Shown here: in pieces, positions 20,701 to 60,749 of the stretch | How positions within the stretch are numbered: position 1 is the stretch's first letter | How the letters are laid out: each line of letters begins with the position of its first letter | Assembly: GCA_016618085.1 (NCBI GenBank) | Contig: JABLTG010000021.1 | Location: forward strand, 93,536-157,535 | Reading direction: 5' to 3' | DNA from: Neovahlkampfia damariscottae | Lineage: Eukaryota; Heterolobosea; Selenaionea; Neovahlkampfiida; Neovahlkampfiidae | Length of the DNA stretch: 64,000 nucleotides | Position numbers and translations under genes: made by a program | The notes under the pieces: generated by a model | Told to the model about the DNA's origin: nothing | The model's input: only the letters and a program-made list of their open reading frames with translations | Database searches by the model: none

Positions 20701-20994
20701 TTATATCATGCCAAGGTCGTTGTCTTCCCACATTTCGTTCAAGCATTCGATTACTGTTTCAAGTTTTATTCGTTTATGAGGTTCAAAACCTTCATTCTCT
20801 ATCATGTGAGATGCAAGAAGTTTCTGTATATCATATTCTGCACTTTCTATTTGAGTGAGTCGACTATCTGATGATTTCTTCGGCATTTGTTTGGTTATTG
20901 CGTTTGCATTGAATGAAAGACTCTTTGATTTGTTTTGTTCATTCGACTTGATCGATGCTTGAAAGTATTGAAATGAAAATGATGGAAAGTTCAT
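20701..20994 (-). CDS. Orphan tandem family, member 1 (divergent)
   Basis: A 97-residue product and the most divergent of four neighbouring paralogues. The shared C-terminal block is recognisable: MIENEGFEPHKRIKLETVI, then CLNEMW and an acidic end. The N-terminus has FPSFSFQYF where the others have FSSFTEFRK. There is no signal peptide or membrane span. An ATTGGCCAACCAAT element lies about 50 nt upstream. I do not recognise the family. Confidence 0.65.
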   Translation of the reverse strand: MNFPSFSFQYFQASIKSNEQNKSKSLSFNANAITKQMPKKSSDSRLTQIESAEYDIQKLLASHMIENEGFEPHKRIKLETVIECLNEMWEDNDLGMI

Positions 20995-21186
20995 TGTACT
21001 TTTCTTTGGTTGTTGGTTTTTGAGTATTCAACACTGGAGTTGGTTCTTATTGGCCAACCAATCAAATTAATTTGTCTGATTTGGAAACACTTTTTTCCTG
21101 ATCTAGATTATTTTCAAACAATTTTGGATAAAAAGACCAAAATGAATTTATTGAATTTGGAGTATTTCTTGCTTCGTTTTAGTAGT

Positions 21187-21552
21187 TTACAGTATCATAA
21201 AATCTGGTTCTTCATCCCATTGTTCATTTAATAATATTATAATCGAATTTAAGTTCACTTTTTTTTTCGCACAACATCCTTCATTCTCAAGGATTTGTTT
21301 AGCCATTTCTTTTTCCAAGATCTCATTTTTATTTTTTTGGAGTCTTTCAGTTTGTGTTTTTTCTAACAACGGTTCGGAATTATATTTTTTTAATGTTATT
21401 GTTTCAATGGTGTTCTTCTTCTGCTGTTCTATCAATGAATTTCTATGTCTTGCTTTCTTCTCTCTGTATTTTCTGAATTCTGTGAACGAAGAGAACTGTT
21501 GAGTTGATGTGTGTGAACTGTTCATGAGTAATAGTCTTTTTGACTTTTGCAT
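21187..21552 (-). CDS. Orphan tandem family, member 2
   Basis: A 121-residue product with the full family layout: FSSFTEFRKYREKK near the N-terminus, a Lys/Gln-rich middle with an NSEPLLEK motif, and a C-terminal block ILENEGCCAKKKVNLNSII followed by LLNEQWDEEPDFMIL. A later in-frame ATG at 21525 is an alternative start. ATTGG is almost adjacent to the start. Function unknown. Confidence 0.7.
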   Translation of the reverse strand: MQKSKRLLLMNSSHTSTQQFSSFTEFRKYREKKARHRNSLIEQQKKNTIETITLKKYNSEPLLEKTQTERLQKNKNEILEKEMAKQILENEGCCAKKKVNLNSIIILLNEQWDEEPDFMIL

Positions 21553-21869
21553 TTCATTGGTCAGGAAGTTTAATTTAAAAAGGGAAATTCACCAATCAGG
21601 GATGTTTACCTTCTTAAATTGGTGAATTTGAATTTTGCTTCCAATCGATTTCCACAAAATTATACCTCCTAATACTCCTAAACTCCTATAAAATCCATAA
21701 ATTTTCCGTGAGAAAAAAATTATTTCTTGAAAATCCAATAATCAACAATTTATTCATAATTAAACAAGTAACCAATTTTTAATGTTTCAAAACTGCAAAA
21801 AAAAATTTTTATTCAAATTATATTCGGAATATTCATGAATAATTATTTATATTCATAACCTTACTGTGT
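21553..21869. other. A/T-rich spacer between tandem family members
   Basis: About 317 bp holding the ATTGG promoter box of member 2 and A/T-rich DNA with short TATTCATAA-like repeats near 21830-21860. I see no coding frame. Confidence 0.4.
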
Positions 21870-22187
21870 TCATAAAACAACAAGATTTTTTTCCTTTTCC
21901 CATTCTTCGCAGAGAACTGAAATAATGGAATCTAAATTAACTTTTTTTCCTGCTTTGTGACCTTCATTTTCAATGATTAGTGTTGCTATTTTTTTTTCTT
22001 TATCAAAGAAAGTATTTTCATCATGATTTCTCTCGATAATAGGTTCTGAAACTTGTCTTCGGATTATATTTTCGTGTGAGGTTGAGCTTCTTTTGTCTCT
22101 CATGGAATTGAATCTCTTGAGAGCTTCTCGTTTTTCCTTCTCTTTCTCTCTGTGTTTTCGAAACTCTGTGAAGGATGAGAAATTCAT
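21870..22187 (-). CDS. Orphan tandem family, member 3
   Basis: A 105-residue product: MNFSSFTEFRKHREKEKEK at the N-terminus, a VSEPIIER motif in the middle, and the C-terminal block IIENEGHKAGKKVNLDSII followed by LCEEWEKEKNLVVL. ATTGG is about 25 nt upstream. Function unknown. Confidence 0.7.
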   Translation of the reverse strand: MNFSSFTEFRKHREKEKEKREALKRFNSMRDKRSSTSHENIIRRQVSEPIIERNHDENTFFDKEKKIATLIIENEGHKAGKKVNLDSIISVLCEEWEKEKNLVVL

Positions 22188-22366
22188 ATTGGTGACAATT
22201 TTTTTGACAAGAATACAAGAAACTGATTGGTTCGGTTGTTCTTTCCATAAATAACAATTCTTCTTCTAAAAGACCTTCCAAATGTTTTTATTGGTTTTCA
22301 TTATTTTTAGAGAATTTTCAACTGCTGTCAAACAGTTCAATAATAAATAAATCACTTCTGATTCCA

Positions 22367-22693
22367 TCACAGAAGAACAAAATCTGGTTCTTCATCCCAC
22401 TCCTCGTTGAGTATTAAAATTACAGCGTCCAAACTCACAGATTTAGTCGGGCTGAAGCCTTGATTTTCCATAATCTGTTTTGCTCTTTCTTTTTCCCTTT
22501 CCTCTTCAGTTTTCTCAGCCTTTATTTGTTTGATAATTGGTTCTGAAATGAGTCTCTTATTAACTTGTTGGAATTCAGGCCCCACTACATCTAAAGAAGC
22601 TGATCTCAAAGTCTTCATCTTTTTCTCCTCTCTGTGCTTTCTGAACTCAGAAAAACTTGAAAATACTTTTGTGTACGTCTCTATTCTTTTCAT
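22367..22693 (-). CDS. Orphan tandem family, member 4
   Basis: A 108-residue product: FSSFSEFRKHREEKKMK near the N-terminus, an ISEPIIKQ motif in the middle, and IMENQGFSPTKSVSLDAVI followed by LNEEWDEEPDFVLL at the C-terminus. ATTGG is about 22 nt upstream. With the three genes before it, it forms a head-to-tail array of one family on the minus strand. Function unknown. Confidence 0.7.
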   Translation of the reverse strand: MKRIETYTKVFSSFSEFRKHREEKKMKTLRSASLDVVGPEFQQVNKRLISEPIIKQIKAEKTEEEREKERAKQIMENQGFSPTKSVSLDAVILILNEEWDEEPDFVLL

Positions 22694-22956
22694 CTGTCAG
22701 AGTGAAAAGTGAGGGAAGTCGCAATTGGTCTAAACAATAAAATCTAGACGATAAATCAGGATAAAAACACGAAATTTCCGAATCTGGGTTTATTTTTGAA
22801 ATAGTTGGAAAACTGTATTGGAGCATGTGACAAACTGTTTCTTTGCTCCTAATTAAGTGATGTTTTTCTTGTCTAAAAACAAGTAAACCCAAATTCATGT
22901 TTCACCGATAAAGTAATTCTCTGTGACTACTTACTTTCAGCTTATTCTTTGTTATT

Positions 22957-23133: not shown

Positions 23134-23708
23134 ATGATTACCTCAACACTTCTGTCTGAAAAAGAGCACTTAATTGAAATTGGAGATAAAGCAGTGTGGT
23201 CTTTAACTTCAGTAAAACCAGGAAACGGTGTCGAAAAACTCAGAGACGACAATCTTGATACATTTTGGCAAAGTGATGGTAAAAAAAACTCAATTTAAAA
23301 AAAAAGGTGTTCAACCACATAAAATAACAATACAATTCCATAAAATTGTAAAAATTCAAGAAATAGCAATTTATGTTGACCTAAAACATGATGAAAGTTA
23401 TACACCAAAAGAATTGTTAATAAAAGGTGGTTATGATTTAAAAGATTTGAAAGATATTATAACTTATAATGTTTCAAGTCCAGATGGTTGGCAAAGAATA
23501 AAATTTGAAAAAAGTTCAAGTTCAGGTGAAAAAAAAAAAAAAAATTTAACAATCAACAGATTACCTTCAATATAATGTGATTCAAATTGTAATTATAAAA
23601 AATTTTCAAAATGGAAGAGATACTCATTTGAGACAAATTAAAATTTTTGGACCTCAAAAAAGTGAATTTAAAACAAAAACATTTCAAACTTTTTCAGACT
23701 TGAGATAA
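23134..23708 (+). CDS. APC10: Anaphase-promoting complex subunit 10 (DOC1)
   Basis: Three exons (23134-23278, 23307-23525, 23560-23708) encode 170 residues with introns of 28 and 34 nt. The DOC domain is clear: [61 protein letters not shown] and [18 protein letters not shown]10 binds the D-box of substrates together with the co-activator in the anaphase-promoting complex. The length matches the human subunit (about 185). ATTGG lies about 47 nt upstream of the ATG. Confidence 0.95.
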
Positions 23709-23740: not shown

Positions 23741-26033
23741 TTAAAAATTTTCTTTAAAGAATGCAAAATATGGTTTTCCAAGTTTACTTTCTTTTGCAGA
23801 AGCAGTTTTTAATTGTTTTCCAATAGCAGGAGCTCCACAAAAGAAAACACCAACTTTTGGTCTTTTCTTTGCATCATTTGGTGTCATTTCTGTTACTTGT
23901 AATCTTACATTTTTGAATTCTTCACTCCATACTGGTCTACCAAAATGTCTTCCTTTACCTTCGACTAATCCTGTTGAAACATCTAAAACTGAAATATTGG
24001 TTGACGGGAAAAATCCTTCTTCTTTTGTTGTTTGATTAATACCTCTCCACCATCCACTAGAATCTTTTTCAGTAACAAGAACTGACTCTCCTACAATCAA
24101 GTCAATTTCATCAGTGGATTGGGCTTCATAATTTGAAACAACCACACCAACTACTTCGATATTCTAAAGAGAATTAATTTCTAATTTTTTTTTTTTTTAC
24201 TTTTGTTTTATCAGTATATTCTGTACTTTGGAAGAAAATTTTTTTAATTTTTTCAGCTTCAAGAGCACCTGTCAAAAAAGTATGGAATTCAAAAAAATCT
24301 GGATGAATTGTTTCTGCTTCAGCCAAAAATTCAGAAAACCAAGCAAAAGATCCAGTATCTCTGTTTGTCCAATAAAACCAACATTTCTTGATCTTCATTG
24401 GTTGACCTGTATCTTTTCTATGTTTAATTTGACGAAGTAAAGAAGCGTATGGTGTTACACCAATACCAGCAGCACATAACATAACGTATTCATACTCAAA
24501 GACATAATCTGTTTGTTAAATTTTTTTTTGTTTAAAAAGTTACCTGCGGATGTACCAAATGGTCCATCAATTCTTAATAATCTTGTTTTTCCATCCGGTC
24601 CATAAGGTTTATCAATAACTAATGTTTCTTTTCTTGTTGGATTGACTAATAAAGAAAGTTATGTTAAATGTTTTTTTTAATTTTTTACAAGTATCCATCA
24701 AAGCTTTAGTCCAATCTCCTACCACACGAATATGAAAAGTTAAATATTCTTGATCTGGAGAACTTGAAATTGTCTTTAAAAAAAGTTATTTTTTTTTTAA
24801 ATTTACAAAAGGATGCCATTCTTGTCTTGAAATTAAAGGAGCATTCAAAAAGCAATATTGACCCGCTTTATAAATAAAGGTTGGTTTTTCTAATTCTAAA
24901 AATAAAACATCTCCTTTCAAAGCATGAACTCTTTTCACAATTGTTGGAGTTGAACCTCTGACCAATCTGAAAACTCTTTCTAAAATATAAAAGAAACCAG
25001 CAGGAAGTAACCAAAGCCTAAAATAATAAATATTAAAAAAAAACCAAAAAAAAAAACCAAAAAGTTTTTCCATGAATCAATAAAAGTGTGTAAAAAATAA
25101 TGAACAAATGATGCACAGACCAAAAAACTGTAAAATTACTTTTTTTTTTAGAAATGAATTAGAAAATGAAACATCTTACTTTGTTCTTCTGTATTCTTTC
25201 ATTGAAGCAGCGTACATGATAAACATAATAATTGTAATAGCATGGCCAGTTGCTCCGTATTTATTCAAAAACATAGCTTCCCATGATGAATAAAATATAT
25301 TTCCTGGTTGTCTATTATTTGGGTTTGGATCATAAATCCATCTTTTTTTTTTTTTAATTTTTTTTTTTTTTGACTTACGAACAACAACTATATGAAAAAT
25401 AATGACCGGCACTGAAAAAGTTTTTAAAATATAAATAACTTACGCATGTAAAGCAACAGCAAATGCAATAACTGTCGCAACCAATCTGTGAAAAACAAGA
25501 TTTTTATCTAAAGGTATAATTTTGTTGAATTTTAATGAAATTAAACTTAAAAATGTTGGTTTTTTTTGTTTGATCTTACATATTCAAAAGTGTCCTCATT
25601 GTAGGATATAAAATAATTGCACCTTTCAACTGTCAAAAAAAAAAAATAATTACAATTTCCGTTAAGCATTTGACCGCCCTATGTTGAAATAAAATAAACT
25701 TTTTTGAATATTCTTCTTACAATTCTAGCAGGAATGACCCACCAATTGAAAGCTTTTCTTGAAATTTCCCAGTAAATAATAATCGGGTAAGTGATTAAAG
25801 CCATATTAAAAAGAATATAGAAAGCCATGAAAAGAATTTTTCTCCAGTTATTATCTATATAATTTCTTCTTTCATCTGGATCTATGATTCTTCTTTTCCA
25901 AACACCGAATGTTTGCCTTTTGATGAATATTGTTATTTTTTTTTGCTTACTTTATCCAGATGAATGGTGATTTTATTAATCGTGTGAACCATTTGCAAAT
26001 ACTTGAGTGGAGAATCCTTGTACCTACACCCAT
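23741..26033 (-). CDS. NADPH oxidase with an SH3 domain inserted in its NADPH-binding domain
   Basis: A multi-exon gene with about nine short introns. The membrane part has LDKNLVFHRLVATVIAFAVALH (one heme-ligand His pair, 14 residues apart) and FWSVHHLFIIFYTLLLIHG (the second). The dehydrogenase part has EWHPF, the FAD motif, then SSSPD, GPFGTSA, CAAGIGVTPYASLL, CWFYWTNRD and a C-terminal VGVFFCGAPAIGK...FKENF, all hallmarks of NOX enzymes that pass electrons from NADPH across a membrane to oxygen. Between YWTNRD...FFEFHTFLTG and GRPVW lies an SH3 domain: YEAQSTDEIDLIVGE, GWWRG and GFFPSTNI. It occupies the loop that is regulatory in human NOX2. No EF-hands are seen. Confidence 0.88.
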
Positions 26034-26399: not shown

Positions 26400-28265
26400 T
26401 TATTGAATCATGCAATTTTCTTGAGCATCTTCCAAATTACTTAAAAATGGAGATTCATTATTCTTCTTTCCTTTATCATTTTCATCAAAATAAACAAGAT
26501 TTTGGATGTCTTCGATTCCTCCTCCTTCTTCATAAAGTGATGAACAATTTTTTGAAACAGAATTCATTAAATGATTCAAAAAAGAAAATTCTGCATCATA
26601 TCCAAGAATAGTGTGTCTTTTACATTTAGATGCTTGATAATTTTCAGAGAAATCTTCAATTTCATTCCATTTTTCATCTGAAATTTTCTTTACAAAAAAT
26701 GAAGGTTTTTGTTTGACATCGTACACCAACAATGATAAACTTGGATCAACTTCTGAAGCATGATAATGAAGTGCAGAAATTGACTCCAAAGGAACAACAA
26801 TTTTATAATGATTTGATTCTTTGAATTTCTTTAATGATTCATTCAAGAATTCAATACAATCTTCTTTGTTTGTAGATTTCTTTTTTTCAACTTTGAAATC
26901 AAACATGTGATAGATGATTTCTTTGTTTATTGGATCGACTTTAAATCTAAATTGAGCTTTAAAATCACCTGATGTTGACCATGTTCCAATATTCAATCTT
27001 AACAAATCACCTCCAAAAACTTTCCATTCATTCTTTGAATCTTTAAGATCTTTGTCTTCGGAGAATTCATAATCTTCATCATCTTTCCATTCTTTAATAT
27101 CTTTTTTTGATTTTAATAAACTTTCAATTTTCATTTCAATTTCTTTTGTTATTTCTGGATTGAAATCTTCAAATTCAGTTGCTTCTTTTAATACTTCAAC
27201 AAGATCACGGTGATCAGGTGCAGCAGGATCTGAAATTGCAGCCAATTGTTTCATAACTGGATTAGTTGTGAATAATAAATCTTTAACAATTGCTGAACTT
27301 GAATTTCTAAATGTTGTGAAATACAAAGTATGAAGATCAAGTTCTTGATAAACTTCAGACCAAAATGGCATGAAATCTTCATGTGAAATAGTTTGGCCAC
27401 TAGTTCCAATTGAGCCAGAAAAATCGACATTTTCTTCATCTTCGTATTCTTCATCGTCTTCTGGTTGTTCAGGATCAAAATCTTCATCATCTTCTTCATC
27501 ATATTCATCTTCAAGAAGACTTTCTAATTTTTGTTTTTTTGATTTAGGTTCTTCAACAGATGTGATTGTTTCTTCAATTTCTTCTTCTTCATCCTCTTCT
27601 TCATCCTCTTCGTCTGATTCTTCAATGATACCCTCAAAATCTAATGGAACTGGGTTTTTATGAGCTAAATAATTTGCTTTGAAGTATAGATCTAAATCAA
27701 AGTAAATAGATTCTAAATCTTCTTTTAAATCATCTTCTGTGAGTTCTTTGAAACCACATTCTCTTTTATGCTTGTAAAATTCAAAAGAAATATCTTCATA
27801 TTCATCATCTTCTTCAACAATAAAAAACCTGACGTTCTTTTCATTCTTTGATTCTTCAAAGAGATTATTTTGAAAAAACTGTTTGATTTTTGGATTTGAA
27901 TTTTCAGGAAAATAAGCAAAAACATATAAAAAATTCATGTCTTGTTTGATTGTTTCTTTAACTTTATCTTTTTTTAATGAAAAAACTTTTGGTCGTAATC
28001 CTTTACAGTTTGTTGAGCAACCGCAATCACAATAAAAATCTGAGTTATTTTCTTCACTTAAATCATGATTTTCATGACATTTTAATTTACAAAATTCACA
28101 GCAATAAGTGTTACATGTTTTGCATTCAAACCAGATTTGTTTTGTAAATTCTGGTCCTGTTTCTGAATAAGTACAGTTTGTTATTTTTAGTTTTGTTTGT
28201 TGTTTCATTTTTGTTTGTAGTATTACTTCTTCGTCTGTTTCTTTTGGTAACTTGAAGAAAAACAT
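26400..28265 (-). CDS. UBR-box zinc-finger protein with a large acidic centre
   Basis: A 621-residue single-exon protein. Residues 30-92 form a UBR-type zinc finger: NCTYSETGPEF, FECKTCNTYCCEFCKLKCH, HDLSEENNSDFYCDCGC, with the Cys/His spacing of N-degron-recognising domains such as UBR7. Residues of about 215-285 are almost entirely Asp/Glu with a KSKKQK basic island. The C-terminal third contains aromatic-rich globular sequence (WKVFGGDLLRLNIGTWS) that I do not recognise. No RING or HECT catalytic domain is visible, so it may be an adaptor or a chromatin-linked UBR protein like UBR7. ATTGG and a partial E2F-like site lie upstream. Confidence 0.7.
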   Translation of the reverse strand: MFFFKLPKETDEEVILQTKMKQQTKLKITNCTYSETGPEFTKQIWFECKTCNTYCCEFCKLKCHENHDLSEENNSDFYCDCGCSTNCKGLRPKVFSLKKDKVKETIKQDMNFLYVFAYFPENSNPKIKQFFQNNLFEESKNEKNVRFFIVEEDDEYEDISFEFYKHKRECGFKELTEDDLKEDLESIYFDLDLYFKANYLAHKNPVPLDFEGIIEESDEEDEEEDEEEEIEETITSVEEPKSKKQKLESLLEDEYDEEDDEDFDPEQPEDDEEYEDEENVDFSGSIGTSGQTISHEDFMPFWSEVYQELDLHTLYFTTFRNSSSAIVKDLLFTTNPVMKQLAAISDPAAPDHRDLVEVLKEATEFEDFNPEITKEIEMKIESLLKSKKDIKEWKDDEDYEFSEDKDLKDSKNEWKVFGGDLLRLNIGTWSTSGDFKAQFRFKVDPINKEIIYHMFDFKVEKKKSTNKEDCIEFLNESLKKFKESNHYKIVVPLESISALHYHASEVDPSLSLLVYDVKQKPSFFVKKISDEKWNEIEDFSENYQASKCKRHTILGYDAEFSFLNHLMNSVSKNCSSLYEEGGGIEDIQNLVYFDENDKGKKNNESPFLSNLEDAQENCMIQ

Positions 28266-31225: not shown

Positions 31226-31465
31226 ATTAAATAAACTGTACTTTCTTGATAGTGACACTTTTTCTTTGCAATTTCCTTTTTGAAAAGTGACAACCGAAAA
31301 AGTAAAAATTCAAACTAGAAAATATCTTCAAATCACTGATTGAGAGCTATTACCTGAATTGTATCACAAAAAAAAAGTTTTATATTTTTTTTTTTGATTC
31401 CTGTTCATTTTTTTATTTTAAAAAAAAACAACCAATCATCGTCAATTTTCCTTTTTCACTCAAAA

Positions 31466-31978
31466 ATGTTTAACAAAACAAAAAAACTTCTGGAACAACG
31501 TGTAACTGATCTCGGTCCAAAAATCAATTCATCACCACGTATTGTTCAAGATATGCCACCACCAGGAGGATTTCCACCTGTAAGAATGAGAAGAACTTTA
31601 ATGACAAAATTTTGGTCACCATATACAATTACTTTGGTAGGAATTGGAATTATGACATATGGGTGGTATAAATATATCAAATTTACAAGAGTAAAAAGAA
31701 ACCTCAGAGAAGAACAAAATATTTTGGAAGCAACAATTACTCCTTTTCTTCAAGCTGAAAATGATTTAAAGTAAAAAAAAAAAAAAAAAAATTAAACGAA
31801 TAGTTTTGTTGTACAAGAAAAAGCTTTTAAAAAAGTAGTTGGTGAACTCATGAAAGATGAACCTAATTTTGATCCAGAACAAGTTTTCAAAAATAACAAC
31901 CATAGATATCTTTATCCAATTCAATCTTTAAATTTGGATCAATTTAAAGACTGTGGTGTTTTAGAATCTGAAAAATAA
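31466..31978 (+). CDS. NDUFA13: NDUFA13 (GRIM-19), respiratory complex I subunit
   Basis: Two exons (31466-31770, 31804-31978) encode 159 residues. The diagnostic segment QDMPPPGGFPPVRMRRT is followed by a single membrane span (ITLVGIGIMTYGWYKYI) and a charged helix (TRVKRNLREEQNILEA..LQAEND), matching NDUFA13. It is an accessory subunit in the membrane arm of mitochondrial complex I, so the organism probably has a complex-I respiratory chain. The 33-nt intron is GT plus a long A run ending AATAG. CCAAT lies about 37 nt upstream. Confidence 0.9.
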
Positions 31979-34189: not shown

Positions 34190-36343
34190 TTAAGCAAAAC
34201 CAAAACCTTCATTTCCATAATTTAATGCAATAGTAATAGATTCTAATAATTTTTCATAACTTGAATAATTTGGTAATTCGATGGTATTTGAGCATGTGTG
34301 AGAAAATGGAAGTGAATCTGATGATCCTGATATTTTTTTCACAAGTTTAATTTTAGGAGTAAAGTTTTTAAAACCACCTATTGGTACTTGAGTTGTTGAA
34401 GTAATGAATTGAAGAAGTCTTGCTCTTTCTTCTTGATTCAAGTTGTCGATTGCAATCCAAAACCATTTTTTAATAGTGGAACTGATTGAAGAATAATCAA
34501 CATTATTTTTCCAATCTTCAACTGATATTTCAGGCAGCCCACAAATCAAATATTCAAGTTCATTTTCATCGAAAATATTCAACCAATCCAAATGAACCAT
34601 AGATTGCAATCCTTTCATAAAACTTTCAACTTGTTTTTGCACTATAGTTACAAATTTATATTTTGTTAGTAGGAATAAATATTCTCTTTTGTTTTTGTTT
34701 GTAACTAATGTATTCTTTCCATGTTTTTTTAATTCAACAATTTTCACTTTATTGTTGGTCGAATATTCTTCTTCTGTGAAATTCAAATCATCTAATAATT
34801 CTCTTGTATCTGGGTCATCCATATCTGACTCTAAAATAAATTTAATTTTTGTAGTGAATAATGTGGGATCTTCCATTTCAAAATCTTTATAATTGAATGG
34901 AATTCCAATCAAATGCTTGAAGAAAACATGAGAGAATGGAACACCAATCAGAATTTGTTCATATAAACATTTTCCAAAGAATTTTCCTGCAAATTCAAAC
35001 AAATCATAGTTTTGATTTTTTGGATTGAAGCTTAACTTTTGTTTTTCATTGGGGGAGAATAATTCATTATTTTGAAACAATTCAGTTGAAAATAATTGAA
35101 TAAACTCTTTAAATAAACCACCTGCATCGATACCAGGTTCATTTTTAAATTGAATGACCCATTTTTTCTTCCAATGATCTGTTGGCATTTTGTTCAATAA
35201 TCCATAAGCACTATTGAATAAATCTTGGCGATCAATCTTTAAAAACAAATCTTGGTAATAATTAGAATCATAAGAACTTGAAATTTGATTCTTAAAAAAC
35301 ATGAATTTTTCATCAAATGATGCTCCAACTTTTGAATGTAAAAAGTATTTGATCAATCCATAAATGATCACAAAATCTTTTGATTTTATGATAAATTCTT
35401 GAAATTCACTGTCATTTAAAGTCATTTCAGTGGTTTCCTGATTTATTTTGACATTCACATTTCTTAATTTAAAAACGAATAATTTAACTGGAAATATGTA
35501 AAATTTGTATTTTATGAGTGAAATTTGAGTTGGTGATACTTTTAAATACATCTTTTCTTTATTATTTTCAACTTCAAAATTCCCAATTTTTTCTTCAATT
35601 GATGATTTTAATTCATCTTTTAAAACAACAAGTTCAAATTTTTTGATCAATTCATCATCATAAGAGATTTCAAGTTGGTGAATACCAATTGTTTGAATTG
35701 AAAAGAAAGCTTTGTATCTTCCATTATCTTCATCTTCAACAATTTTTTGAAAATCATTGGTTTGATTCATTGACATCAACTCAATTTGAAATTTATTTGA
35801 ATTTCCACCTTTTTTTCTTTTGTTATGAAATCTATCAAAAGTTGATATAGTAAACTCTTTTTCACCATAAAAAGGTAATTTATCAATTCCTTTAATTTCG
35901 CTGAATTTTGGTTCTATTTCTCCAGGAGAGATTTCAATTTTTTTTTTCTTGATATAACCATCATAGTTCAAAAAAATATGATATAAACCTGATTTTCTTG
36001 CTTCAAAAAGAATAAAGTTGTCATCTGTTATTTCTGGAATAATTTCTGTTACTCCTTCAATGGTCACACTGAATTTTGTTGGTTCCTTCCATTCTGTTCC
36101 ATCGTTGGCAATTAAACTTATTTTGAATTTTAATTTTTTACCAACTGTTAATTGTTTCTCTTCTGATGTTATTTTGCATTTTTCTATTTCAAGTCTTCTA
36201 ACAAACGGGTTTCTGAAAAAAGGTTTTGGTTTTGGTTTTGATTGAGTTTTTGGGCCTACATATGAGGGTATTTTGTCATATGAACTGACTATGGCATAAA
36301 TTACATAACTGATGAACAAAGACAACAACAGTTCAAACAACAT
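34190..36343 (-). CDS. AREL1-like HECT ubiquitin ligase with filamin-type repeat
   Basis: A 717-residue single-exon protein. Residues 2-22 are a hydrophobic anchor. Residues 50-250 hold filamin/immunoglobulin-like strands (ARKSGLYHIFLNYDG, ...IQTIGIHQLEISYDD). From about residue 390 there is a complete HECT domain: FKNEPGIDAGGLFKEFIQLF, GKFFGKCLYEQILIGVPF, VQKQVESFMKGLQSMV, and the catalytic-cysteine region LPFSHTCSNTIELPNYSSYE with an ending (NEGFGFA) like AREL1. AREL1 is a human HECT E3 that degrades apoptosis regulators; the same domain order and C-terminus suggest orthology or close relation. The biological target here is unknown. Confidence 0.83.
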   Translation of the reverse strand: MLFELLLSLFISYVIYAIVSSYDKIPSYVGPKTQSKPKPKPFFRNPFVRRLEIEKCKITSEEKQLTVGKKLKFKISLIANDGTEWKEPTKFSVTIEGVTEIIPEITDDNFILFEARKSGLYHIFLNYDGYIKKKKIEISPGEIEPKFSEIKGIDKLPFYGEKEFTISTFDRFHNKRKKGGNSNKFQIELMSMNQTNDFQKIVEDEDNGRYKAFFSIQTIGIHQLEISYDDELIKKFELVVLKDELKSSIEEKIGNFEVENNKEKMYLKVSPTQISLIKYKFYIFPVKLFVFKLRNVNVKINQETTEMTLNDSEFQEFIIKSKDFVIIYGLIKYFLHSKVGASFDEKFMFFKNQISSSYDSNYYQDLFLKIDRQDLFNSAYGLLNKMPTDHWKKKWVIQFKNEPGIDAGGLFKEFIQLFSTELFQNNELFSPNEKQKLSFNPKNQNYDLFEFAGKFFGKCLYEQILIGVPFSHVFFKHLIGIPFNYKDFEMEDPTLFTTKIKFILESDMDDPDTRELLDDLNFTEEEYSTNNKVKIVELKKHGKNTLVTNKNKREYLFLLTKYKFVTIVQKQVESFMKGLQSMVHLDWLNIFDENELEYLICGLPEISVEDWKNNVDYSSISSTIKKWFWIAIDNLNQEERARLLQFITSTTQVPIGGFKNFTPKIKLVKKISGSSDSLPFSHTCSNTIELPNYSSYEKLLESITIALNYGNEGFGFA

Positions 36344-36412
36344 CTTTTTTGGATGACAGTGATTGGATTGTAAAAATAGAATTGTTTTGAATTGAATTTT
36401 TTTTAATTTTTG

Positions 36413-38310
36413 ATGTCACTGAATAATTTAAAATTCATACTAAAAGTAGGCAATTGGATAATTTTAAACCAATTGATGGACTTTAACGGAATTTTCGGAA
36501 TTGAAATCGAGGATCAACTTCTTTTTCAACAAGATTCGTTCCTCGACAATACTTCAGATTTTAAAGAGAAGAACATTGTGAATCAATCTAAAATGAATCA
36601 AAAGAACAATTACTCTTCAATTTTTAGCTCGAAAACATCAGAAACAAGCACGTTTCATAATTTCGATTTTTTAGAAGAAGAGCTTTTAAATGAAGAAGAT
36701 ATTATATATTCACCAGGATTTTCTTATTCACCAGAGAATAAGAGTACGAAACCTCATAATAATATCACAACAGAATTAGAAAAAATGCTTGAAACTCAGA
36801 CCAAAAAAATTGAAAGACCTGTACATTTTGAAACTAAAAAATTGGATATTTATCATGATGACACTGAATTAAACTTTGAATCACTCTTGGATTATGACCA
36901 ACAAAATTTAAAAACCAACTTACAAATTGAATCACCAAAACATCAAGTTTACAGCACACAAAGTTTTATAGAATCACCAAAACATGTAATTCCTATAAGT
37001 TTTGAAGATATTCTTGAGTCACCTGTGAAAAATCAACATTTTCAAAGTCAAACTTTTTCCTATCATTCCAAACAAGAATTTCGATCACCAAGAGAAGAAT
37101 TTCCAATAAACTTTGAACAAATGCTTGATGAAACACCTACCAAAAAAATAGAAAGACCTGTACATTTTAAACTAACTAGCACAAATCAAGAAGATATTTT
37201 GTGTGAAGGTGATGATTTTGATGCCCTTTCATTCTCAATTGATCAATATCAAATTGGTCTTTCTATTAAAACTCAACAATTACAACAACGTCAACTTTAT
37301 TTTTCACATCAAGAACAACCTAAAGTTCAATTTGATGAAAAGAATTATTCATACCACATTGAACAGCAAATTGAACTTTCAAAAAAGAAAAAGAAAACAA
37401 CAGCATATTGTGGAAATTGTGGATCAAGATACAGATACACTGACAATAATGATCAAGGTGGATTATGTGGAAAATGTTTCAGTTTAAAAGAAAATTTAAA
37501 AAAACTTCAAGAAGAAGAAGAAGAAGAAGAATTCAGTGATTCATCAGATGATCTTTGTTTATCAGAAACTATTGTTGATGAAGATGAATCACAAATTATT
37601 ATTCCACAAAAATTACATAAATATTGTATTGGAACAGGAGGTGAATCGGTTAATAAAATTAAAAGTGAAACTGGATGTAATCATATTCATTTTTATCAAG
37701 ATGGTTCTGTTCAATTATTAGGAGAAAGAAAAGACAGAAAACAAGCAATTAGAAAATTAGTTGAACGTTTGGAAGATGTTGGTTGGATTTATGAAAATGA
37801 TGAATGGATTGAAAGCAAAAAATTTGATCAAATTTGGAAAACATTCAGACAAGAAGCAAGAAAACAATATGAACTGAGAAACTATTATAGAGAAGAAGCA
37901 AAGAATGCTTATAATGAAGGAGATCATGAATCAGCTGAAAAATTCAAAGAAGATTCAAAAATTCATCAATTAAAATTCAAAGTAGAATCAGAAATTGCAG
38001 CAAAACGTATTTTTGAAGAAGTGTAAGAAAAAATAATTTCATCATTTAAATTTTTAAAAGTAACAAAAAGAATGATTTATTTACCATTGATCTTCATGGA
38101 TTATTTGTTGAAGAAGCATTAGAATTTGTCGAAAAAAGACTTGAAGATGTTTCAGATGCATCAGGTGAAATATTAACAATCATTACTGGAGCAGGAAGAC
38201 ATTCAAAAGAAGAAAAAGCAATTTTAAAACCAAAAATTGGAGAATTATTGTCAAAAAGAAGTTTATATTATTTCATTAAAGAAGGTAGAATTAAAGTTAT
38301 GTGCGAATGA
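36413..38310 (+). CDS. KH-domain / DUF1771 / SMR protein
   Basis: Two exons (36413-38022, 38061-38310, 38-nt intron) encode 619 residues; an ATG at 36476 is an alternative start. The N-terminal half is low complexity with short repeats (KKIERPVHF twice, ESPKH twice). A CxxC zinc-binding-like segment follows (YCGNCGSRY...LCGKC), then a KH RNA-binding domain (LHKYCIGTGGESVNKIKSET), then DUF1771 (RQEARKQYELRNYYREEAK), and after the intron an SMR domain (IDLHGLFVEEALEFV...IITGAGRHS). SMR domains often cleave or bind RNA in ribosome and mRNA quality control. The combination points to RNA surveillance, by inference. Confidence 0.75.
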
Positions 38311-51692: not shown

Positions 51693-51795
51693 GGATCTTG
51701 ATGTGAATGGTGAAATATTTGCACTTGAAACAAATACATCTTCTTTCTTGGAATTCTCTGTTCTGATTGGTCAACGGTTCTCAACAGAAGAACTC

Positions 51796-51868
51796 ATGTT
51801 ATTGAAAATGTGAACAGAAATTGGAATTTTGTTCCTGAAAATATTTTGATTGGAAGAATAAATCTAAA
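51796..51868 (+). repeat. Duplicated promoter-like segment, copy 2
   Basis: The longer version of the segment at 50711-50760. It lies 20 nt before the ADP-ribosylhydrolase ATG and contains two ATTGG boxes. Confidence 0.7.
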
Positions 51869-51887
51869 AATAAAACAAATTTTGAAC

Positions 51888-53276
51888 ATGAACAAAACGT
51901 TGGGTGTTGATTACTTTACAAATGACAAAGAAGAAGACAGGGTAATTGGTTCAATACTCACTGTAATGATTGGTGATATATTAGGAGCAGGAGTGGAAGG
52001 ACATGGTTCAACAACTATATCAAAATATTATTCATCAGGTGTAACAGATTTTATTTCTGCAGCTCATATGGGTATTTATGAATTAGGTGAAAGATATGGA
52101 ATGTACACAGATGATACAAATTCAACACTTGCTTTAGCCACGTCATTAGTTCAAAAACAATATTTAGATGCAAAACATTGCGCAGAAAGTTATTCAAAAT
52201 TTTATTTCACAGAACCAAAAAGAGGATACCCAGATAGTGCTCAAAAAGTTCTTTATGGAATCAAAAATGGAATGGATTATAAAAAAACGGGTACTATTGC
52301 ATTTCAAGATGGATCTTATGCAAATGGAGGAGCAATGAGAATAACTCCGATAGGATTAGCATTTAGAAATGCAACTGATGATATTTTATATGAAGCATGT
52401 CGTCTGGCAATAATTTCTTCTCATGTTCATCCTGAAGCGATTGATGGAGCATATATCATTGTTAAATGTATTCAATTTGGGCTTTCATTTGATTCAAAAA
52501 AAGGCCTTGATGAAATCAAATTCCTCAAAGCAATGAAATCTTCAGCCAAAACAGAAGAAATGAAAAAGAGAATTGAAAACTTGATTAAATCGTTTAGAAA
52601 TGGAGATTCAGATGAAAAGGCTCTTCAAAAAATTTCAGGTTCTTTTCAAATTCGAGCTGTTGAAGCTGTTCCTGTTGTGCTTTGGGGTTTCATAAAATAC
52701 TGGAAAAATCCAGAAGAAGCATTGATAAAAATGATAGGATTTGGAGGAGACACAGATACAACTGCATGTATTCTTGGAGGTATTTTAGGATCAATTCATG
52801 GAACTAGTTGGATACCACATCGTTGGTTTGACAATATGGAGAATGGTAAATTTGGAAGGGATTATTGTATTGAAATGGGAAGACATTTGTTTGATTTAAA
52901 TTTAAAAGATTTTGAAAAAATAAAATCAGTTCAACTAAAAGAAAAAGGAAATGAATATTATGTCAAACAAGAATTCAAAAGTGCATTTGAAAACTACATT
53001 GAAGCATTAAAAGATGTTGATTTAACAAGAAAGTTGAAGATTGATTTATATTCAAATTGTGCTCAATGTAAAGTGAAATTGAATGAATTTGAAGATGCTG
53101 TTAAATTTGCAGATGAATGCTTATCAATTGATTCAAAGCATCTCAAATCTATTCATAACAAATCGTTTTCACTTTTGAAATTAGAAAAATATACAGAAGC
53201 TATGAAAGTCTGTGAAATTGGACTAGAAATTGACTCAGAAGATGAAAAGTTGAAAAAATTGAAAATCTTATTTTGA
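51888..53276 (+). CDS. ADP-ribosylglycohydrolase fused to TPR repeats
   Basis: The first ATG (51888) gives 462 residues; the frame is open upstream but without an ATG. The enzyme part shows the ARH/ADPRS motifs: IGDILGAGVEG, MYTDDTNSTLALATSLV, NGGAMRITPIGL, SSHVHPEAIDGA and GFGGDTDTTACILGGILGS. The TDDT and GGDTDTT sets hold the two magnesium ions in this family, which removes ADP-ribose from proteins. From about residue 350 there are TPR helices (LKEKGNEYYVKQEFKSAFEN, then YSNCAQCKVKLNEFEDAVKF), of the Hsp70/Hsp90-binding co-chaperone style. The fusion suggests the hydrolase is recruited by a chaperone or protein tail, an inference. The enzyme domain looks catalytically complete. Confidence 0.85.
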   Translation: MNKTLGVDYFTNDKEEDRVIGSILTVMIGDILGAGVEGHGSTTISKYYSSGVTDFISAAHMGIYELGERYGMYTDDTNSTLALATSLVQKQYLDAKHCAESYSKFYFTEPKRGYPDSAQKVLYGIKNGMDYKKTGTIAFQDGSYANGGAMRITPIGLAFRNATDDILYEACRLAIISSHVHPEAIDGAYIIVKCIQFGLSFDSKKGLDEIKFLKAMKSSAKTEEMKKRIENLIKSFRNGDSDEKALQKISGSFQIRAVEAVPVVLWGFIKYWKNPEEALIKMIGFGGDTDTTACILGGILGSIHGTSWIPHRWFDNMENGKFGRDYCIEMGRHLFDLNLKDFEKIKSVQLKEKGNEYYVKQEFKSAFENYIEALKDVDLTRKLKIDLYSNCAQCKVKLNEFEDAVKFADECLSIDSKHLKSIHNKSFSLLKLEKYTEAMKVCEIGLEIDSEDEKLKKLKILF

Positions 53277-53397
53277 ATCTGTCCAAAAATAGTTAATGTC
53301 TTTTAATTGGTTATTAACTTTTCCAAAAAGGGCAGGGCAATTTCTAATAAATGTTAGAAGGATTATTTGATTGGTCACATTTTATTTTTTATCCAGA

Positions 53398-53727
53398 ATG
53401 TTAAAGCTTGAAGATGTCCAAATACATTTTGACAAACCAATTCATGAAGCATCTGCTTGTTTAGGTGTCCAAATTCATGATTTGAAGAAAGTTCTTCACG
53501 AAAATAATTTAAAAAGATGGCCATGCAATGGATTCAGGAAAGTTCCAAAAAGGAATGATGCAATTGATTCACCATTCAAGATTATTCAATTTAAAAAACC
53601 AATTCCAACCAAATATCCACCTTTAAAACCTGCAATCAAAATCATAAAACCAAAAAAAACATTACCATCAATTTTGCCTTCATTTCAAACATTGGTTAGG
53701 TCAATTCAGACACAACAACCACTTTAA
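53398..53727 (+). CDS. RWP-RK-like DNA-binding protein
   Basis: A 109-residue single-exon protein. Residues 1-50 follow the RWP-RK pattern: LEDVQIHFDKPIHEASACLG, then LKKVLHENNLKRWPCNGFRK. The RWP core is exact, with CNG in place of the usual HRK. The rest is Pro/Lys-rich (KYPPLKPAIKIIKPKKTLP). RWP-RK factors control nitrogen response and mating in plants, green algae and some amoebae. ATTGG lies about 32 nt before the ATG. Identification rests on the motif only. Confidence 0.65.
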   Translation: MLKLEDVQIHFDKPIHEASACLGVQIHDLKKVLHENNLKRWPCNGFRKVPKRNDAIDSPFKIIQFKKPIPTKYPPLKPAIKIIKPKKTLPSILPSFQTLVRSIQTQQPL

Positions 53728-59789: not shown

Positions 59790-60749
59790 TTATTGTTTCA
59801 TTATTTTTAAGACTCTATCTATTTCAAATTTATCAGTTGCCAAGTTCACTTGGAAATTCGAAATTTTTGTTGGATGTATCTTCACTGTCTTTTTTTTCAA
59901 ATTGGATTCGTCAATGTCAACTTCAATTAAACAACCTAAATCATTTCTATATTCATCATCTATTGCATAATCATCAACAAAATCACCTAATGAATATAGA
60001 ATTATCCCTTGGTTGTACAATTCAATTCTTTGAACATGATGAGCACTGTGTCCATGAATAATATCGACACCAGCATCTATCAAAGCATGTGCTAATTTTT
60101 GAATTTTCATTGATGGTTCCCATGAGTAATTTGGACCCCAATGAATGGAGAATATTATGATATCATTTTGTTGTTTTGATTTTGAAACTATGTCAATAAC
60201 TTCAGAAAAATTTTCATTTTCAATATCAATTATCCATATCCCTTCTTCATTTTTGTATCTCGGGATTCTCTTTCCAGCATCCCAAATGAATTCATGATCT
60301 GCTGCACTGAAACATTTGATATTCACATTTGAATTGGGAACAGAATAGGATACGAATTTTTGAGCTTCCTTTCTATTCATTCCACATCCACAATGAGATA
60401 TATTGAGAGAATCTAACACTTTCATCGTTTCAATCATTCCTTTCACTCCAAAATCCAAAATGTGGTTATTCGCTAAAGAGACATGTTTCACGTTAGATTC
60501 AAGCAAATGTGGACAGAAAAATGGGTGCAATTTGAAATTAAAAACTTTGTTCGGCCATTTATCTTCAGATTTCGTGATGGAAGTTTCTAGGTTCATTATG
60601 AAAAAATCTGAATTTTTTGTTCTTTCTGTTGTGTTTCCCCAAATGTTGTAGCTAAAATTTAATTTTTGATTATATTACTTTTGGTTATTATGAAAAACAT
60701 TGTTGAAAAGCCTTCCGATCATGGCATCTCCTGCTAAAGTGATTTTCAT
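59790..60749 (-). CDS. CapA/PgsA-like metallophosphatase-fold protein
   Basis: Two exons over a 27-nt intron (near 60651-60677) encode about 310 residues. The start MKITLAGDAMIGRLFNNVF carries the GD motif, followed by IMNLETSITKSEDKWPNK, VKHVSLANNHILDFGVKGM, IIIFSIHWGPNYS and DIIHGHSAHHVQRIELYN, the CapA family metal-site motifs. In bacteria CapA/PgsA takes part in poly-gamma-glutamate capsule synthesis; eukaryotic copies are thought to derive from bacteria. There is no signal peptide, unlike bacterial CapA. The intron and ATTGG promoter show it is domesticated. Confidence 0.78.

Follow-up and report, generated by a model that had tools for sequence, protein, structure and literature searches.

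Activation of human NOX2, in those parts of PMC13296129 that deal with it, centres on the NOX-NIS, a 20-residue insertion that is disordered at rest and visible in the activated complex, and that acts as the central platform for p67phox and Rac to dock on; this docking triggers a conformational change, and on activation the NADPH domain closes onto the FAD domain. An undocked resting state is described in the corresponding part of PMC9711523. For Naegleria gruberi, the portions of PMC3591440 (2013) concerned with these enzymes report that both NOX orthologs carry an SH3 domain (PF00018, model M17 in the figure legend) within the C-terminal NADPH-binding domain, and take it to suggest an unknown proline-rich partner. 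PMC2121648 counts a single N. gruberi Nox, places it near Dictyostelium NoxA and NoxB and reports that a regulatory subunit gene was not found; in its section on this enzyme an SH3 domain in the chain goes unmentioned. Beyond PMC3591440, we found no report of an SH3 domain inside a NOX among the matches listed from the open-licence literature, which leaves subscription papers uncovered.

Here we describe a gene encoding a NOX with a nested SH3 domain. The original prediction held that no NOX with this layout had been described, a claim that falls with the N. gruberi report as given in those portions; the arrangement is real and already described in kind, and the gene analysed here is another example of it, not a new layout. 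What is added is the insertion point of the SH3 domain and evidence against simple internal gating, and a little-noticed 2013 observation in Naegleria is extended to a eukaryote that is probably different.

An intron-rich NADPH oxidase gene

The window, by which we mean the whole 64-kb stretch of DNA that was analysed, is eukaryotic (28% GC) and holds on its minus strand an intron-rich eukaryotic NOX gene, whose predicted splicing was worked out by hand from the genomic DNA with the frame closed throughout (Table 1). The interval 23741-24482, to which an oxidase with a built-in SH3 domain had originally been assigned without a strand, corresponds to the last exon and most of exon 11. All eleven introns are of the GT-AG type; one measures 91 nt and the other ten 32-43 nt. 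The introns are poorer in GC (17%) than the last exon (33%), and within codons GC drops from 38% at the first two positions to 19% at the third, as one expects of coding exons when a genome is AT-rich.

Table 1. Coordinates of the NOX gene and its parts within the window.
Feature	Position	Strand	Basis and remarks
NOX gene, 12 exons, 611 aa + stop	23741..26033	minus	start ATG at 26033, stop TAA 23743-23741; splice model and Pfam Ferric_reduct, FAD_binding_8, NAD_binding_6, SH3_1
Exon 1, N-terminus; in-frame stop just upstream, EF-hand extension not seen	25951..26033	minus	splice model
Exon 2	25721..25916	minus	splice model
Exon 3	25580..25629	minus	splice model
Exon 4, first haem-histidine pair (presumed) H129/H143	25444..25545	minus	splice model, NOX2 alignment
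Exon 5	25379..25411	minus	splice model
Exon 6	25180..25341	minus	splice model
Exon 7, second haem-histidine pair (presumed) H218/H231	25058..25138	minus	splice model, NOX2 alignment
Exon 8, FAD-binding domain begins	24807..25017	minus	splice model
Exon 9; HPFT divided between exons 8 and 9	24689..24773	minus	splice model
Exon 10 (PYGP, DGPFG)	24544..24645	minus	splice model
Exon 11, first half of NADPH-binding domain (GIGVTP, YWTNRD, HTFLTG)	24201..24508	minus	NAD_binding_6 E 4.3e-20
Intron 11, 37 nt, GT-AG; final TAG is a stop in the exon 12 frame	24164..24200	minus	splice model
Exon 12: SH3, then GRPVW...GVFFCG...KENF of NADPH-binding domain, single open frame	23741..24163	minus	SH3_1 E 3.2e-12 and NAD_binding_6 E 6.1e-7 in same ORF
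SH3 domain proper, model residues 477-530	23987..24148	minus	Pfam SH3_2 477-530, SH3_1 481-525; counted from residue 472 at 24163

The spliced product matches Ferric_reduct (residues 109-228, E 2.1e-12), FAD_binding_8 (264-366, E 3.9e-19) and NAD_binding_6 (374-593, E 2.2e-28), all three above the Pfam cut-offs and in the order found in NOX. H129/H143 and H218/H231 align with NOX2 as two pairs with NOX spacing and are presumably the haem-binding histidines, and the HPFT, GIGVTP and FFCG motifs and the C-terminal KENF are all found in the chain. Among solved structures, human NOX2 chains come closest (8gz3_B and 8kei_B, E 3.9e-61 and 4.1e-61), followed by NOX5 (2.8e-48), chains annotated as 'Putative ferric reductase' (8cak and 5o0x, 4e-46) and DUOX1 (2.7e-44). 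An EF-hand extension was considered and rejected: Pfam gives no EF-hand match in the 611-residue product, and shortly before the start ATG the frame is interrupted by a stop (a same-strand ORF ends at 26400), which points to the layout of the NOX1-4 group, without EF-hands. We predict that the gene product is an EF-hand-free NADPH oxidase with haem-bearing membrane, FAD and NADPH domains, a chain that would carry electrons from NADPH across the membrane to oxygen.

An SH3 domain nested within the NADPH-binding domain

Pfam confirms that, as originally proposed, a complete SH3 domain lies between the YWTNRD...HTFLTG segment of exon 11 and the GRPVW motif of exon 12, both belonging to the NADPH-binding domain. 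The last exon on its own matches three SH3 models above cut-off, a sequence signature of the fold (SH3_1 E 3.2e-12, SH3_2 E 1.3e-9, SH3_9 E 3e-9), together with NAD_binding_6 (E 6.1e-7), and in the spliced product the SH3_1 match (481-525, E 2e-11) is nested within that to NAD_binding_6. A single-sequence structure prediction of exon 12 alone returned a mean pLDDT of 36.4, too low to use.

On its C-terminal side the fusion of SH3 to NADPH domain is splice-free, and on its N-terminal side it spans only the 37-nt intron 11. The first Met of the last exon is exon residue 93, beyond the SH3 domain, and in the same frame a TAG codon immediately precedes the exon; the SH3 is therefore not a free-standing gene and, barring a non-ATG start, is translated only by way of splicing from upstream. 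A separate SH3 gene and a chance match were both rejected on these grounds, the domain sharing one ORF with the NOX C-terminus; in the DNA itself, SH3 and NOX are genuinely fused.

Local alignments to NOX2 (8gz3_B, 570 residues) give the insertion point. The first aligned piece ends at NOX2 residue 485 and model residue 452, and the next starts at 499 and 531 respectively, where the alignment resumes at DVSTGL/DVITGL. Between them 78 model residues (453-530, SH3 included) stand opposite only 13 in NOX2 (486-498), a gap falling in what we take to be the insertion of the NOX NADPH domain, with limits 484-504. The C-terminal piece is weak when taken alone (i-Evalue 0.0078 against 8gz3_B), so that the insertion is delimited only approximately; the register is fixed by GRPVW and the C-terminus. 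As aligned, the SH3 is inserted in the NOX-NIS loop, its position being approximate. The original proposal that the SH3 sits within the catalytic chain at the position of the regulatory loop of human NOX2 is thus supported by Pfam, by the NOX2 alignment and by PMC13296129, in whose account of activated NOX2, in the parts on activation, this is the loop where the activators dock. With an SH3 domain in that loop, the enzyme offers a natural test case for the idea that the NIS is the general point at which subunit-controlled oxidases are switched.

The SH3 pocket and its relatives

Read by eye against p47phox and the SH3 consensus, the domain has kept the WW pair and the P and, of the two ALYDY tyrosines, the second. 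Two pocket aromatics are apparently replaced, the first ALYDY Tyr by S and the PSNY Tyr by N. If the pocket positions and the ALYDY and PSNY consensus apply to this domain as we assume, the substitutions suggest that ligand binding may be atypical or lost. The N-SH3 of p47phox is likewise non-Tyr at the first ALYDY position (A there, S here), and it still binds ligand.

When the SH3 alone is searched against the PDB, the p47phox and Tks5 SH3 domains score highest among the best 60 of 127 matches. The full-chain PDB ranking had suggested a special kinship with the p47phox SH3, which we rejected: in the alignments among the matches listed, p47phox comes first by summing two SH3 domains of about 21-22 and 18-20 bits each, so that its rank shows no special kinship. 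The best single-domain scores, again among the best 60 of 127 matches, are those of Tks5 (37.9 bits) and NCK1 (37.5 bits). Scans with exact peptide patterns gave one pattern match for exon 12 and 13 for exon 11 in viral contigs, and 44 for exon 12 in prokaryotic genome contigs, with no confirmed relatives in either collection; because patterns from one sequence reach close relatives only, and the genome contigs are prokaryotic, these scans are uninformative on eukaryotes.

Possible roles of the SH3 domain

From its position, which is read in the sequence itself, we infer a docking role, and we think it rather likely that the SH3 serves as a built-in docking module for a trans partner at the switch point of this EF-hand-free NOX. 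It would then stand where NOX2 receives p67phox and Rac; binding of the partner would order the loop, and the ordered loop would help the NADPH domain to close onto the FAD domain. That both NOX orthologs of N. gruberi share this layout, according to the portions of PMC3591440 that describe them, argues for a kept arrangement. The two apparently replaced pocket aromatics count against the docking reading, as does the absence of a phox-like neighbour, though a partner gene need not be adjacent: Pfam finds none of the p22phox, p67phox, PX, PB1 and Rac families among the 61 ORFs of at least 110 aa in the window. That scan covered all 61 as unspliced single ORFs (two trimmed at an end) and so misses short exons; two of the 61 are exons of the NOX gene itself, and the sole TPR match adjoins an ADP-ribosylglycohydrolase domain.

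A more specific proposal, which we advance tentatively and hold to be somewhat improbable as it stands, is that the SH3 took over the job of the NOX-NIS. In this lineage a folded adaptor would stand in place of a short loop that is disordered until it folds upon p67phox and Rac, and an activator with a non-canonical SH3 ligand would directly drive closure of the NADPH domain, bypassing a p47phox-type organizer. Were this true, eukaryotes other than animals, fungi and Amoebozoa would have arrived independently at a way of controlling NOX activation through subunits.

The SH3 might instead act as a rigid spacer, binding no peptide and merely stabilising the loop in an enzyme that is active without a p67phox-like partner. 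The apparent replacement of the first ALYDY Tyr and the PSNY Tyr is consistent with a spacer, as is the absence of a phox-like regulator from all 61 unspliced ORFs; however, the second ALYDY Tyr, the WW pair and the P are all kept, and p47phox N-SH3 binds ligand with a substitution at the same first position, and we consider a spacer unlikely.

Poorer still are the prospects of an internal gate, in which the SH3 would bind a proline-rich stretch of its own NOX chain and hold the enzyme off (or on), much as Src kinases are gated internally through their SH3 domains. From its place within an enzyme domain, the SH3 could extend to the FAD domain of the same chain, and the only PxxP of the chain (PYGP, residue 348) does fall inside the FAD_binding_8 match. 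This single motif is nonetheless not above chance (mean 1.26 in 2000 shuffles, 73.9% of which reach one), and an internal PxxP ligand was rejected for that reason; moreover, the chain contains no class I and no class II motif, and by alignment two pocket aromatics appear to be replaced. The original suggestion of gating by proline-rich ligands within the enzyme is accordingly weak, with room left for a partner in trans, and the SH3 ligand is probably not a textbook class I or class II PxxP peptide of the same chain.

A gene-model artefact, with the SH3 exon taken from another gene or the contig misassembled, is barely credible: the splice model was made by hand from genomic DNA, but the SH3 and the end of NAD_binding_6 occupy one uninterrupted ORF with no Met before the SH3 and an in-frame stop directly upstream, and the N. 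gruberi layout was reported independently (PMC3591440, in the portions on these enzymes).

Other features of the window

A plus-strand gene lies tail-to-tail with the NOX gene and includes a piece of ANAPC10 (23216-23575, PF03256, E 6.5e-21). On the minus strand nearby are four small ORFs (20701-21027, 21187-21588, 21870-22265 and 22367-22696), of which three share, by eye, the motif FSSF(T/S)EFRK and a similar C-terminal end, the fourth being alike at the C-terminal end only; none of the four has a Pfam match. Further along are a GRIM-19 match (31358-31771, plus strand, PF06212, E 1.9e-20), presumably indicating mitochondrial complex I and hence an aerobe, a HECT ubiquitin ligase whose HECT domain is preceded by a filamin repeat (34193-36415, minus strand), TPR-like repeats joined to an ADP-ribosylglycohydrolase domain (51729-53273, plus strand) and an RWP-RK domain (53371-53724, plus strand, PF02042, E 3.6e-10). 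The GRIM-19 and RWP-RK matches may hint at the kind of organism involved.

Two adjacent minus-strand ORFs lie in different frames. The one at 62699-63706 matches PF21915, the first domain of the major capsid protein of the Sputnik virophage (E 1.3e-17), and the one at 62031-62699 matches PF22031, the MCP_V20 C-terminal domain (E 6.7e-16); neither has a match in PHROGs. By these domain matches they are a predicted endogenous virophage-like element in a eukaryotic contig. Close to them, an ORF at 59793-60674 (minus strand) strongly matches the bacterial PGA_cap family (PF09587, E 2.6e-61) and is possibly a horizontal acquisition or cargo of the element.

Comparison with known oxidases

The enzyme resembles human NOX2 in its core domains, its histidine pairs and its FAD and NADPH motifs (E about 4e-61), and differs from it in that NOX2 has a short NIS insertion and the SH3 proteins p47phox, p67phox and p40phox are separate subunits. 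With Dictyostelium NoxA and NoxB it shares the EF-hand-free layout under which PMC3591440, in its relevant portions, groups them, whereas an in-chain SH3 is not mentioned for them there; it is by description that they are set apart. The closest likeness in layout is to the N. gruberi NOX orthologs, which by their published description (PMC3591440, same portions) are EF-hand-free with the same Pfam SH3 family inside the C-terminal NADPH-binding domain. Base composition and intron number nonetheless disfavour Naegleria itself as the source of the gene: GC is 35-37% in 14 Naegleria assemblies and 28% in the window. Naegleria genes also have few introns, as against the eleven of the NOX gene described here.
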